A stretch of DNA of 49,439 nt from Pseudodesulfovibrio pelocollis (GTDB lineage Bacteria > Desulfobacterota > Desulfovibrionia > Desulfovibrionales > Desulfovibrionaceae), in assembly GCF_030282845.1 (NCBI RefSeq), contig NZ_JASTWE010000029.1, forward strand, positions 1 through 49,439, given 5' to 3'. The notes below the pieces were generated by a model. That model was not told where the DNA came from, searched no databases, and saw nothing but the letters and a program-made list of their open reading frames with translations. The stretch's first letter is position 1; the number at the start of each line of letters is the position of its first letter. Position numbers and translations under genes: made by a program. Shown in pieces: positions 2,857 to 38,534 of the stretch.

Positions 2857-3657
2857 ATGAGCGAACACGACACCGCCGCCCCATCGGCGGCCCTCCAGGA
2901 ATTGCGCGACGTCATCGACGCCCTGCTGGGACCCGGCGGCTGCCCCTGGGATCAGGCGCAGACCCCGCAGAGCCTGTGCGACTACCTCGTCGAGGAATCC
3001 TTCGAACTCATCGACGGCATCCGCCGGGGCGACAGCGGCGAGGCCATGGAGGAACTCGGGGACGTCTTCTTCATCCTGCTCTTCATCGCCGCCCTGTACG
3101 AACGCGCCGAAAGCTTCACCCTGGCCGACTCCCTCAGGCACAGCGCGGCCAAGATGATCCGCCGCCATCCCCACGTCTTCGACGACAAGACCTTTGGCTC
3201 GATCCAGGAACTGTGGGACAACTGGGAGCGCACCAAGCGCCGGGAGAACGAAGGCACCGGCCGCAGGCGCGTCTTCGACTCCCTGCCCGCCGGGCTCCCG
3301 CCCCTGCTCAAGGCCTATCGGATCAACTCCAAGGCCGCGCGCAACAACTTCACATGGAAGACGGATGAGGATGTGGAGACCCAACTGCGGGCCGAGTGGT
3401 ACGAATGGCGGCAGGCCATGATCGAGAAGGATGAGGAGGCCGCAGAGCGAGAATTCGGCGACTACCTCTTCACCCTGGTGGAGCTGGGCAGGCGCAAGGG
3501 AATCAAGGCCAACGCGGCCCTTGATTTCGCCAACCAGAAGTTCCTGCGCCGTTTTGCGGCCATGGAGGACCTGGCCGAGATACGCGGCCTGGACTTTTCG
3601 GAACTGGAGCTTGAGGCCATGAACGTCCTCTGGGACGAGGTCAAGACCGGAGAGTGA
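2857..3657 (+). CDS. mazG: Nucleoside triphosphate pyrophosphohydrolase MazG
   Basis: All-alpha NTP pyrophosphatase that hydrolyses NTPs and dNTPs to monophosphates and clears aberrant nucleotides. At 266 aa it is a full two-domain MazG. The first domain carries the metal-binding EESFELIDGI and EELGDVFFILLF helices (EExxE...ExxD pattern). The second repeats the pattern with EREFGDYLFTLVELGR. GGCPWDQAQTPQSL near residue 27 is the usual family opening. The ATG at 2857 follows an AAGGA-containing ribosome site. It probably shares a transcript with cvpA. Confidence 0.95.
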   Translation: MSEHDTAAPSAALQELRDVIDALLGPGGCPWDQAQTPQSLCDYLVEESFELIDGIRRGDSGEAMEELGDVFFILLFIAALYERAESFTLADSLRHSAAKMIRRHPHVFDDKTFGSIQELWDNWERTKRRENEGTGRRRVFDSLPAGLPPLLKAYRINSKAARNNFTWKTDEDVETQLRAEWYEWRQAMIEKDEEAAEREFGDYLFTLVELGRRKGIKANAALDFANQKFLRRFAAMEDLAEIRGLDFSELELEAMNVLWDEVKTGE

Positions 3658-3699: not shown

Positions 3700-3861
3700 T
3701 CAGCGCAACAGGCCAAGCAGGAAGTACACGGCGAAACCTCCGCCGAGGGCGAGATAGATGAAGACTCACGGCGCGCAACGCTCCCTGAGTTTCCAGGCCG
3801 CCAGCCCGGCCAGCCCCAGGCCGATAATGGCCGAAATCACGATGAATCCGATCTCTTCCAT
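3700..3861 (-). CDS. Candidate two-transmembrane selenoprotein (Cys-Ala-Pro-Sec), in-frame TGA
   Basis: A minus-strand frame of 54 codons runs from ATG 3861 to TGA 3700 and is interrupted only by TGA at 3766-3768 (codon 32). Before it come MEEIGFIVISAI..., one hydrophobic helix (residues 4-23), then WKLRERCAP. After it, in the same frame and with the local codon preference, comes VFIYLALGGGFAVYFLLGLL, a second hydrophobic helix. Read through, the joint is Cys-Ala-Pro-Sec, a CxxU redox motif between two membrane helices. A hairpin at the expected distance could act as a bacterial SECIS. It starts 57 bases after the M14 peptidase stop, so it may be co-transcribed. No strong ribosome site is seen; GTG 3876 is an alternative start. 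Other explanations are a nonsense mutation of a CxxC protein, a sequencing error, or a 31-aa peptide. I do not recognise the family. Confidence 0.5.
3729..3745 (-). promoter_or_regulatory. Candidate bacterial SECIS hairpin
   Basis: Twenty bases after the in-frame TGA at 3766-3768, the minus strand reads CGGCG-GAGGTTT-CGCCG: a perfect 5-bp stem with a 7-base loop containing GGT. Bacterial SECIS elements lie within the coding sequence just 3' of UGA, with a short stem and a G (often GGU) in the apical loop, as in E. coli fdhF. Here the loop begins 26 bases after the UGA. Position, stem and loop all fit; SelB binding is inferred, not shown. Confidence 0.45.
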
Positions 3862-5400: not shown

Positions 5401-5691
5401 ATGACCATGGCAATCGGCGGTTTCGGGGGCTTCTCGCCCTTCGACCAGCAGACGTTTGGCGCTGCCGTGGTATCGAAGACCATGGATTACATGAACAATC
5501 AGGGCGGCAGCCCGGGCTTCGCCCCGGTGGACAAGGCGTCCACCGGCGGTGCCCTCGTCAGCAAGACCCTGGATTACATGAACTCCGGGCCTTCGTTCAG
5601 CGACAGCACGGGCATGGCCCAAAGTTACGACTTCCAGACCAGCGTCCTCGGCGCACACGCCAAGGGCTCCATCATCAACACCATGATCTGA
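5401..5691 (+). CDS. Small hypothetical protein, sigma-28-controlled
   Basis: A 96-aa soluble protein with no signal peptide or membrane helix. It contains two similar segments, AAVVSKTMDYMNNQGG (residues 21-36) and GALVSKTLDYMNSG (50-63), which suggest an internal duplication. Each could form a short amphipathic helix, loosely like the YjfB-type putative motility peptides. That resemblance is only a visual impression. A strong ribosome site, GGGAGGG, lies six bases before the ATG; a second in-frame ATG is at 5407. The sigma-28 promoter makes a late-flagellar or chemotaxis-related role likely, although the main flagellar cluster is 21 kb away. I do not recognise the family. Confidence 0.8.
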   Translation: MTMAIGGFGGFSPFDQQTFGAAVVSKTMDYMNNQGGSPGFAPVDKASTGGALVSKTLDYMNSGPSFSDSTGMAQSYDFQTSVLGAHAKGSIINTMI

Positions 5692-5749: not shown

Positions 5750-5841
5750 CGAGTGTTCAGGTCATACCTGTCTCACTACCCACTTAAAACCACATTCTTT
5801 CCGACGGCGAAGCACGCCGCGTCCCGCTGCGAAAAAAGTTT

Positions 5842-7749
5842 CTACTTGGTCTTTTTCAGCCGTATCTTGTTGTCGATGATCAGCATTCCCTTCTCAAGCT
5901 GCCATTTCATGGAAGTGGGCGGAGCGCCGACAGGGGCCCAAATCATGGTATCGCCGTTGAAGGTGTACGTTCCCTTCTGCGCAGCGATTGTCTCGTTCAT
6001 GGTGCCCTTGGGGAATTGTTTCATGACCTCCGGCGTCAATTTCGAATTGAAATCAAAGGTGCCGTTCTTGTTCAACACAATCGTGTACACGGCCTGCGGC
6101 ATCCCGTCCTGAAAGCCTTTCCATGTGCCGAGCAGCGCGTCCACGATGACGCTCTTGCGGACAATGGGAGCCTCCGGCTTGACGCCTTGTGATTCGAGCA
6201 GCGACACGCTGCCCGCGTTGCCCGCCCGGTTGGCGTAGCTCATGACCGTTTCGCCTGCGCCGTTTGTCTTCTGGGCGTCTGCGCCCTTCTCCATGAGGAG
6301 CTTCACGAGTTTTTGATTGCCTGCTCCGGCCGCAAGCATCAGTGCGGTTTCGCCCTTGTCATTCACCATGTCGAGGTTCGCGCCCTTGCTGATCAGCAGG
6401 GCAGCCCGTTCGTATCCCTGCCCGATGTTGGACTGTTGGGCAGCGGCCATGAGCGCGGTCCAGCCGTTTGCGGCCTGGAAATCGACGTTGCCCCGCCCGG
6501 ACAAGAGGTGCTTGATGATTGTAAGGTTGTCCTTGTTCTTGAATGGATCAGGATTCGTGGCCGCTGCAACCAGCGGGGTCACGAGAATGTTCACAGGCGA
6601 CTTCACATTTATCTCCGCGTCGGCATCAACCAGGGTCTTCACCATGTCGGCATGGGTTTGATGCACGGCAAGCATGAGCGCCGTGGAGCCCGATTTGTCA
6701 AAAATATCGAGCTTTGCCTTGCTCTTGATCAGATATTTGGCCGCAGCGATCTGGTTTGCCCCTGCCGCGTAATGCAGCGGCGTTCCGCCCGTGGCCAACC
6801 CCTCGAGGTCGATGGCCGCACCATTGTCCAGCAGCAGCCTGGCGGCATCGACAAAGCCGAATTGTGAGGCCAGGTGCAGGGCGGCCATGCCGCCGCCGTC
6901 CTGCCCGATCTTCTGCAAATCGAGTTGTGGCTTGAAGGTGATGAATTTTTCCATAAATTTGAAAATTGTCTTTGAATCATCGCCGCCGAGGCTGCTGATG
7001 GCCGTCATGAGCGTCGTGCTTCCGCCATTATCCACATGGTTGATGTCCGCTCCATTGGCCACGAGGTAGTCGAGCACTTCGCGTTGCTTGTGCAGAAATA
7101 CCGTCGTCAGTACGGACTTGCCGGAGTTGTCAGCAGTATTGATGGTCGCTCCGTGCTTGTGCAGGAACTTCAGCGTCTCGAAGTCTTCGTACTCAGAGAT
7201 GAACCAGAGTGACGACTCACCGTCCTTGGTCCGTGCGTTGATGTCGAGGCCCTTTCCCTGGGTGACGAGCACCTGGATCACGTCCGCATGGTCCCTCTGC
7301 GCGGCCTTGATGAGCGCCGTATTGCCCCTTGATTCCGGGGTGCTGTCCGTCCGGTCCTTGGCGTTCACCTTGGCGCCCATACGCAACAGGATGGCGACGA
7401 TGTCCGCCTGCCCTGTGTGCGAGGCGAGGATGAGCGGCGTGCGCTCCCAATCGCCCCAGGCATCATAACTCACGCTGCGTTTGTTGACGTCCACTCCGGG
7501 AGATTGCAGAATCAATCTGGTGATGTCCGGGTTTTGGCTCCGCAGCGCCCAGCACAGCATGGAGTCGTGGTCGTATATGGCGTTGACGTCGGCGCCGCGC
7601 CCTATCGCGTCTCTGACCTTGGCTAAATCGTTCCTGTAGATGGCTTCATACAACGGTGGCCAGGGGACTTTCTCCGAGTATGCGAGAGCCGGGACTGACG
7701 TACTCAACACCAACAAAACCACCACGGCGATCTGGAACGCGGCCTTCAT
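5842..7749 (-). CDS. Exported ankyrin-repeat protein
   Basis: A protein of about 635 aa. Residues 1-24 form a signal peptide (MKAAFQIAVV... SVPALA), followed by roughly a dozen ankyrin repeats with TPLHYAA-, TALMLA- and GADIN-like signatures. The last 100 residues are a separate beta-rich segment starting LLGTWKGFQDG that resembles lipocalin or copper-resistance-type folds (GTYTFNGDTMIW). It is likely periplasmic and protein-binding. The frame is open to 7995, but the ATG at 7749 begins the signal peptide and follows GAGGGG. Base composition is visibly more A/T-rich than the neighbours, with codons such as AAA, TTG and ATT common. That and its position next to a tRNA hint at acquisition. The partner is unknown. 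Confidence 0.88.
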   Translation of the reverse strand: MKAAFQIAVVVLLVLSTSVPALAYSEKVPWPPLYEAIYRNDLAKVRDAIGRGADVNAIYDHDSMLCWALRSQNPDITRLILQSPGVDVNKRSVSYDAWGDWERTPLILASHTGQADIVAILLRMGAKVNAKDRTDSTPESRGNTALIKAAQRDHADVIQVLVTQGKGLDINARTKDGESSLWFISEYEDFETLKFLHKHGATINTADNSGKSVLTTVFLHKQREVLDYLVANGADINHVDNGGSTTLMTAISSLGGDDSKTIFKFMEKFITFKPQLDLQKIGQDGGGMAALHLASQFGFVDAARLLLDNGAAIDLEGLATGGTPLHYAAGANQIAAAKYLIKSKAKLDIFDKSGSTALMLAVHQTHADMVKTLVDADAEINVKSPVNILVTPLVAAATNPDPFKNKDNLTIIKHLLSGRGNVDFQAANGWTALMAAAQQSNIGQGYERAALLISKGANLDMVNDKGETALMLAAGAGNQKLVKLLMEKGADAQKTNGAGETVMSYANRAGNAGSVSLLESQGVKPEAPIVRKSVIVDALLGTWKGFQDGMPQAVYTIVLNKNGTFDFNSKLTPEVMKQFPKGTMNETIAAQKGTYTFNGDTMIWAPVGAPPTSMKWQLEKGMLIIDNKIRLKKTK

Positions 7750-8212: not shown

Positions 8213-8304
8213 TGGCGGAGAGGGAGGGATTCGAACCCCCGGACGGGTTGCCCCGCCTCTGGTTTTCAAGACCAGCGCATTAAACCGAGCTCTGCCACCT
8301 CTCC
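8213..8304 (-). tRNA. tRNA-Ser(UGA)
   Basis: Class II tRNA of 92 bases including an encoded CCA (8213-8215). The acceptor arms GGAGAGG and CCTCTCC pair. The anticodon stem CTGGT/ACCAG carries a loop CTTGAAA with anticodon TGA. A long variable arm and a GGTTCGAATCC T-arm are present. It reads UCN serine codons. Confidence 0.97.
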
Positions 8305-15251: not shown

Positions 15252-15345
15252 TGGCGGAGAAGGAGGGATTTGAACCCTCGATACGGCTCTACACCGTATA
15301 CACGCTTAGCAGGCGTGCGCCTTCAGCCAACTCGGCCACTTCTCC
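15252..15345 (-). tRNA. tRNA-Ser(GCU)
   Basis: Class II tRNA of 94 bases with encoded CCA. The acceptor arms GGAGAAG and CTTCTCC pair. The anticodon loop CTGCTAA gives anticodon GCT, reading AGC/AGU. A long variable arm (TATACGG/CCGTATC region) and GGTTCAAATCC T-arm are present. Confidence 0.97.
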
Positions 15346-38458: not shown

Positions 38459-38534
38459 GCGGGTGTAGCTCAGCTGGTAGAGTACAAGCTTCCCAAGCTT
38501 GGTGTCGCGGGTTCGACCCCCGTCACCCGCTCCA
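38459..38534 (+). tRNA. tRNA-Gly(CCC)
   Basis: A 76-base tRNA with encoded CCA. Acceptor GCGGGTG/CACCCGC, D-arm GCTC...GAGT, anticodon stem CAAGC/GCTTG with loop TTCCCAA (anticodon CCC), T-arm GCGGG-TTCGACC-CCCGT with one weak pair. It reads GGG glycine codons. Confidence 0.97.

Follow-up and report, generated by a model that had tools for sequence, protein, structure and literature searches.

The minus-strand frame at positions 3700–3861 of the window, the whole 49,439-nucleotide stretch of Pseudodesulfovibrio pelocollis DNA that was analyzed, very probably encodes a real selenoprotein and, judging from sequence comparison, belongs to a new family found across many sulfate-reducing bacteria. 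The UGA at codon 32 is almost certainly decoded as selenocysteine (Sec, U). The first-pass annotation had proposed a two-transmembrane CxxU selenoprotein, and this proposal is supported by the conserved TGA, the second helix, selection downstream of the TGA, a family-wide hairpin, and the Sec machinery.

The frame starts with an ATG at 3861, runs for 30 more codons ending in Cys-Ala-Pro, reaches the TGA, and continues for 21 codons to a stop at 3700–3702. Translation of the minus strand gives the read-through product MEEIGFIVISAIIGLGLAGLAAWKLRERCAP*VFIYLALGGGFAVYFLLGLLR, where the asterisk marks the TGA. The coordinates, the codon number 32, the Cys-Ala-Pro motif, and the flanking hydrophobic stretches described in the first-pass annotation were exact on re-reading, as was its hairpin, CGGCG-GAGGTTT-CGCCG, which begins after 20 bases 3′ of the TGA. 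The features of the gene are as follows.

3700–3861, minus strand: proposed selenoprotein gene, 53 residues plus stop, TGA as selenocysteine (family conservation, selection)
3766–3768, minus strand: in-frame TGA, proposed selenocysteine codon, residue 32 (column common to 84 of 86 profile matches)
3766–3777, minus strand: C-A-P-Sec motif codons, residues 29–32 (Cys in 80/80 and Pro in 76/80 curated members)
3729–3745, minus strand: SECIS-type hairpin CGGCGGA-GGT-TTCGCCG, loop 27 nt past the TGA (fold and family-wide controls)
3787–3858, minus strand: helix 1, residues 2–25, membrane-spanning by hydrophobicity (AlphaFold2 model, mean pLDDT 70.8)
3706–3774, minus strand: helix 2, residues 30–52, membrane-spanning by hydrophobicity, conserved Tyr and GxG (AlphaFold2 model and conservation)

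There is no clear Shine-Dalgarno sequence at the gene, and an Rfam search there gave a single sub-threshold SNORD35 match that was judged to be chance. An M14/AspA-type carboxypeptidase, assigned via its relative L070, is encoded by the upstream ORF, whose end is separated from the ATG by 56 nt. A convergent mazG gene, assigned via its relative L090, ends at 3657.

Homologs conserve the in-frame TGA

The family consists of two-helix proteins of 51–58 aa arranged as helix 1, a K/R-rich turn, C-x-P-U, and helix 2. The first query was the read-through protein with Cys standing for the TGA, so the search was biased toward Cys forms. Fourteen of 119 genomes from the same taxonomic family were matched, each with one TGA (14/14) followed by 21–23 open codons. 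Profile A1 was built from these 14 homologs and carries Cys at the TGA column. With this profile, 67 of the 348 class genomes gave 72 matches: 69 with one TGA, one with two, and two with none. The same profile matched 16 of 395 genomes of the phylum, a set that overlaps the class set; 14 of these were new and had one TGA each. A TGA occupies the motif column in 84 of the 86 profile places from class and phylum genomes. At one of the two TGA-less places, in G322, a Sec-less sister sits next to a normal copy; the other, in G339, is a partial match that covers helix 1 only and was judged to be chance. No sense codon takes the place of the TGA in the 84 TGA-bearing matches. Relatives keep both the TGA at the codon-32 column and an open second helix beyond it, the outcome of the homolog comparison that had been suggested for this frame. 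The profile match was absent from four of the 36 genomes of the host's genus.

Cys-form orthologs were not found in the 348 class and 395 phylum genomes (overlapping sets), even though the profile carried Cys, nor in a profile search of the 196 and 199 genomes of the class and phylum of a Clostridiales MAG described below. The family stands an even chance of being a widespread one that exists solely in the Sec form, with Sec kept even where the partner Cys is lost. As judged by these searches, the Sec-only status apparently holds for the genomes covered and not for all of life.

A curated alignment of 80 members was prepared without L071b and L149 (no TGA), L127 (decayed), L125 and L128 (no Cys), and L130 (unclear start). 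Cys and Sec are present in 80/80 members, Pro in 76/80, Tyr in 77/80, and the two GxG glycines in 73/80 and 79/80. The stop lies 21 or 22 codons past the TGA in 72/80. In 57/80 the distance from start to TGA is exactly 31 codons, a figure that is partly by choice because the start rule prefers 31.

A DNA pattern scan of genome contigs matched at least 118 stretches. The pattern demands a TGA, so the scan cannot weigh TGA against Cys. Among the 80 pattern matches listed, 72 were intact members as defined by profile score and open frame; the matches left out were six chance matches, one member cut by a contig edge (L155), and a one-helix form (L168). The 72 intact genes among the matches listed come mainly from Desulfobulbales and Desulfovibrionales records, titled mostly Desulfobulbaceae, Desulfobulbus, Desulfocapsa, Desulforhopalus, Desulfofustis, Desulfoprunum, Desulfogranum, Candidatus Electrothrix (the cable bacteria), Desulfonatronum, Desulfonatronovibrio, Desulfonatronospira, Desulfovibrio, and Pseudodesulfovibrio. 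Genome G313 also bears a family member. A plasmid search with two queries, the P. pelocollis protein and L135, gave no match. A single-sequence scan of genome contigs returned 593 pattern matches, none of them confirmed; it missed true relatives too and is hence uninformative on absence.

Selection was compared on the two sides of the TGA in 27 independent pairs. The dN/dS was 0.198 before the TGA and 0.189 after it, and by this estimate purifying selection is equal on both sides. As calculated from the alignments, the comparative signal (the 84/86 TGA column together with equal selection) exceeds chance; the hairpin of the P. pelocollis gene alone does not.

A SECIS-type hairpin follows the TGA

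Bacterial SECIS elements are described in the available part of PMC13188914 as having a small loop 16–37 nt past the UGA in which G occupies position 1 or 2 and G/U often comes next. The hairpin of the P. pelocollis gene has a stem of 7 bp and a GGU loop and fits this loop and distance rule. Taken singly it is unremarkable: comparison with 200 dinucleotide shuffles gives z = −0.23, and among 60 synonymous versions of the gene 17% have a hairpin that is at least equally stable.

The family-wide analysis used 152 genes (80 curated plus the 72 among the pattern matches listed), which reduced to 141 distinct genes and to 85 after thinning. The most stable hairpin per gene satisfied the SECIS rule in 112/141, at 17–28 nt, and departed from it in loop or distance in 29/141. 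A rule-fitting hairpin of −8 kcal/mol or below was present in 65% of the 141 genes compared to a mean of 8% and a maximum of 13% in the synonymous controls, which were 60 sets encoding identical proteins with random synonymous codons. The thinned set of 85 genes gave 65% compared to 8% (maximum 18%). The folding excess of the SECIS region had a mean z of −1.16 against synonymous versions, and the helix 1 control region was also at −0.57.

Covariation was examined in 111 genes from outside the host's genus using shuffles that leave relatedness in. The third-base pair 18/33 across the stem is paired in 74/111 genes, and 1000 shuffles gave a mean of 44.6 and a maximum of 58; after thinning, 40/64 are paired (shuffle mean 25.1, maximum 36). 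In the 70 genes where both codons encode Gly, the commonest combinations are A-T (20) and C-G (19), which is a two-sided synonymous exchange. Pair 22/29 is also above every shuffle (69 versus 60; thinned, 35 versus 33). These are the only two of eight stem pairs above every shuffle; the remaining six are not. The six inner stem pairs are paired in 77% of cells compared to 47–59% when the stem is slid one or two bases. In 30 genes of the host's genus the stem codons are near-fixed at the third base: +7 ATC (17/17 Ile), +8 GGC (28/30 Gly), +11 TTC (10/10 Phe), and +12 GCC (26/26 Ala). Neighboring four-fold codons are looser (+9, 0.64; +10, 0.63; +13, 0.42), and outside the stem, near-fixation is also seen at a few two-fold codons.

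Decoding of the TGA

A complete set of Sec genes, which the first-pass annotation had named as a check, is present in the P. pelocollis genome: tRNA-Sec (82 bits), selA, selB (374 bits, cut-off 242), and selD. The selD gene at G000:C73:6726–7655(+) (locus L276) holds one in-frame TGA, and SelD is probably a selenoprotein itself. Across the class, selA is found in 278/348 genomes and in 64/67 family-matching genomes (Fisher p = 1.4e-4, uncorrected for kinship and with the chance match G339 counted among the 67). The three matching class genomes without selA are 67, 73, and 77% complete. When 246 better genomes were considered, all 57 matching genomes had selA and 0/27 selA-less genomes matched (p = 5e-4, uncorrected for kinship). 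All 14 hosts outside the class have selA above the cut-off. Two matches in the window resembling RF01852, at 8217–8304 and 15256–15345, were rejected as tRNA-Sec and are tRNA-Ser. The tRNA genes of the window are listed below.

8213–8304, minus strand: tRNA-Ser (TGA), explains a weak tRNA-Sec model match
15252–15345, minus strand: tRNA-Ser (GCT), explains a weak tRNA-Sec model match
38459–38534, plus strand: tRNA-Gly (CCC)

Two other readings of the TGA were weighed against selenocysteine insertion. The codon could be an ordinary stop, leaving a short peptide, a decayed gene, or a chance frame. In favor of this reading, the G308 relative contains an additional TGA and lacks a good start, and the hairpin of the P. 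pelocollis gene alone is unremarkable. Equal purifying selection on both sides of the TGA and the recurrence of both the TGA (84/86) and the downstream stop (21 or 22 codons later in 72/80) argue strongly against it, and we regard an ordinary stop as extremely improbable. The UGA could also be passed by another route, plain read-through or insertion of Trp, to give a full-length product without Sec; the comparison shows that the codon is passed and not which residue is inserted. Such a route is very improbable given that the Cys three residues before the TGA is invariant (80/80), a Trp codon never replaces the TGA in the 84 TGA-bearing matches, and the family has both the SECIS-type hairpin and the selA association. 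Selenocysteine insertion remains the preferred reading of codon 32.

Variant copies and a Sec-less sister

G161 contains three copies of the gene, and two of these (L125 and L128) keep the TGA/Sec without the Cys and have a C-terminal extension. These Sec-without-Cys copies are not consistent with a simple CxxU couple. A one-helix form, MKEILKSFLTHCPPU plus one helix, was matched at 5802–5855(+) of L168 in a Clostridiales MAG. It has a GGAGG ribosome site, and its hairpin keeps the usual register; the selA of its genome is incomplete, lies at the end of a contig, and scores below the cut-off. Profile searches of its class (196 genomes) and phylum (199 genomes) revealed no other convincing member, and the Clostridiales occurrence may reflect misbinning or transfer. 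Two weak Clostridia matches, L278 and L279, were rejected; the frames displayed have no CxPU.

In 21/348 class genomes, all of the host's genus (Pseudodesulfovibrio-type), the selenoprotein gene is immediately preceded by a gene for a Sec-less protein. The adjacency was verified by coordinates in 21/21 with gaps of −4 to 52 nt. The protein has two helices, is 62–72 aa long in the 15 aligned sequences, and ends in YYIL-x-V-x-x-G-x-GR-[TI]-GWP (GRTGWP/GRIGWP). Its profile finds four selenoprotein genes and the selenoprotein profile finds one of these proteins; this cross-matching identifies the GR[TI]GWP protein as a diverged sister. The 15 aligned rows have no invariant Cys and no TGA, and scans of four members against Pfam and NCBIfam gave no useful match. 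The sister is absent from the P. pelocollis genome itself. Two rows of the sister alignment (A5) are given below.

L031:1316–1501, plus strand: Sec-less sister gene
L016:1675–1860, minus strand: Sec-less sister gene

Predicted structure and function

In the AlphaFold2 model (pLDDT 70.8, pTM 0.36), residues 2–25 and 30–52 are helical and the CxPU motif is located at the turn. A deeper alignment lowered the pLDDT to 66.8, and at this low confidence the helix packing in the model is not reliable. The family gave no useful match in NCBIfam (best E 0.0086) or Pfam (best E 0.017) and no match among PDB sequences, and Foldseek found no fold match in the PDB for the two-helix model. The model consists of two helices only, with no thioredoxin fold around the CxxU and no Pfam match. 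Over the 80 members the eight residues before the Sec carry a mean net charge of +2.04 compared to −0.35 for the N terminus and +0.79 for the C terminus, and by the positive-inside rule this positive K/R-rich turn suggests that the motif is cytoplasmic.

Decoding of codon 32 by the SelB/SECIS route would yield a protein of 53 residues whose two helices form a hairpin in the inner membrane, with C-x-P-Sec at its turn. The turn would face the cytoplasm, placing the Sec at the start of helix 2 on the cytoplasmic membrane surface. The protein would most likely be a membrane-anchored selenol/thiol redox center in which the selenolate attacks a substrate (oxidized sulfur, selenium, or peroxide) or else trades electrons with a partner in the membrane; Cys29 would resolve the intermediate. 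Close packing of the helices is suggested by the GxG of helix 2, and the likeliest partner in Pseudodesulfovibrio-type genomes would be the Sec-less sister encoded just upstream. A redox function, suggested by the motif, is about evenly poised between being right and wrong.

The main rival to the redox function accepts a real selenoprotein and makes the selenolate a ligand for a metal or metalloid such as Hg, Cu, or As, with the protein acting as a small carrier, sensor, or chaperone in the membrane. A short Cys/Sec pair at a membrane turn with no enzyme domain would suit such a role, as would the two G161 copies that keep Sec without Cys, and a mercuric transport selenoprotein (PF02411) is known from the available part of PMC13188914. 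However, none of the 14 members scanned matched PF02411 at E values up to 1, there is no useful Pfam match to another transporter family, and no metal-resistance gene recurs among the 10 neighbor families scanned. Metal ligation is a possible but unlikely function, and the redox center is the preferred reading.

Relation to known selenoproteins

SELENOK and SELENOS are small eukaryotic membrane selenoproteins without a classical enzyme domain. The resemblance to the P. pelocollis family is a likeness only and no homology is claimed; SELENOK and SELENOS differ in being single-pass, in having the Sec near the C terminus, and in using eukaryotic decoding. The bacterial CxxU selenoproteins SelW-like, GrdA, and AhpD-like, as covered in the available part of PMC13188914, share with the family the CxxU, a UGA with a downstream hairpin, and hosts with SelA, SelB, SelD, and tRNA-Sec. 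They are larger, with known domains and Cys homologs, whereas the family is a two-helix hairpin with no domain match and no Cys form found. The YeeE/YedE transporter, PF02411, SaoP, and SO_0444 Cu/Zn efflux entries of the same source are, by their names, likewise membrane selenoproteins, but these are transporter families and the P. pelocollis family has no Pfam or NCBIfam match.

The first-pass annotation suggested that the protein might be undescribed, and no NCBIfam, Pfam, or PDB counterpart was found. The 119-family selenoprotein inventory (Table 1 of PMC13188914, in the part available) has no fitting entry, the available parts of PMC9312934, PMC8318568, PMC2398784, and PMC1794560 contain nothing resembling the family, and searches of the open-licence literature, taken without supplements, brought up no such family. 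In view of these results, a prior report of the family under another name is quite unlikely.

Selenoprotein searches lean on Cys homologs and gene callers, and a 53-aa gene that is cut at codon 32 and has no Cys relatives escapes both. The available part of PMC12013277 states that its own method may miss selenoproteins without Cys homologs and that such homologs now seem to exist for every known selenoprotein; the same part lists 10 known and 0 new selenoprotein genes for Salidesulfovibrio onnuriiensis IOR2 (3,886,744 nt). If confirmed, the family would add one more selenoprotein to many sulfate reducers, would offer a very small protein on which to test why some proteins cannot dispense with selenium, and would suggest that further small Sec-only genes await discovery.

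Gene neighborhood

Neighbors were surveyed at 145 loci with ORFs chosen by length and one representative identified per family. The M14 peptidase, proposed earlier as a possible co-transcription partner of the selenoprotein gene, is the upstream neighbor in just 2/145 loci, so this arrangement does not extend to the family. BipA/TypA lies directly upstream on the same strand in 43/145 loci, within 40 nt in 32 of the 43 and often within less than 10 nt. Der/EngA holds the same position in 5/145, and a gene for an IF-2B-family, MtnA-like protein is downstream in 17/145. A function drawn from the neighbors was rejected because no neighbor is common across clades, and the neighbors point to no shared pathway.

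The BipA/TypA GTPase adjacency belongs to Desulfobulbales-type loci, for example L208:2439–4238(+). Small ORFs near the selenoprotein gene in 15/145 loci, whose representative L088:4340–4627 has no Pfam match, resemble a 96-aa ORF of the window at 5401–5691(+) that starts MTMAIGG.
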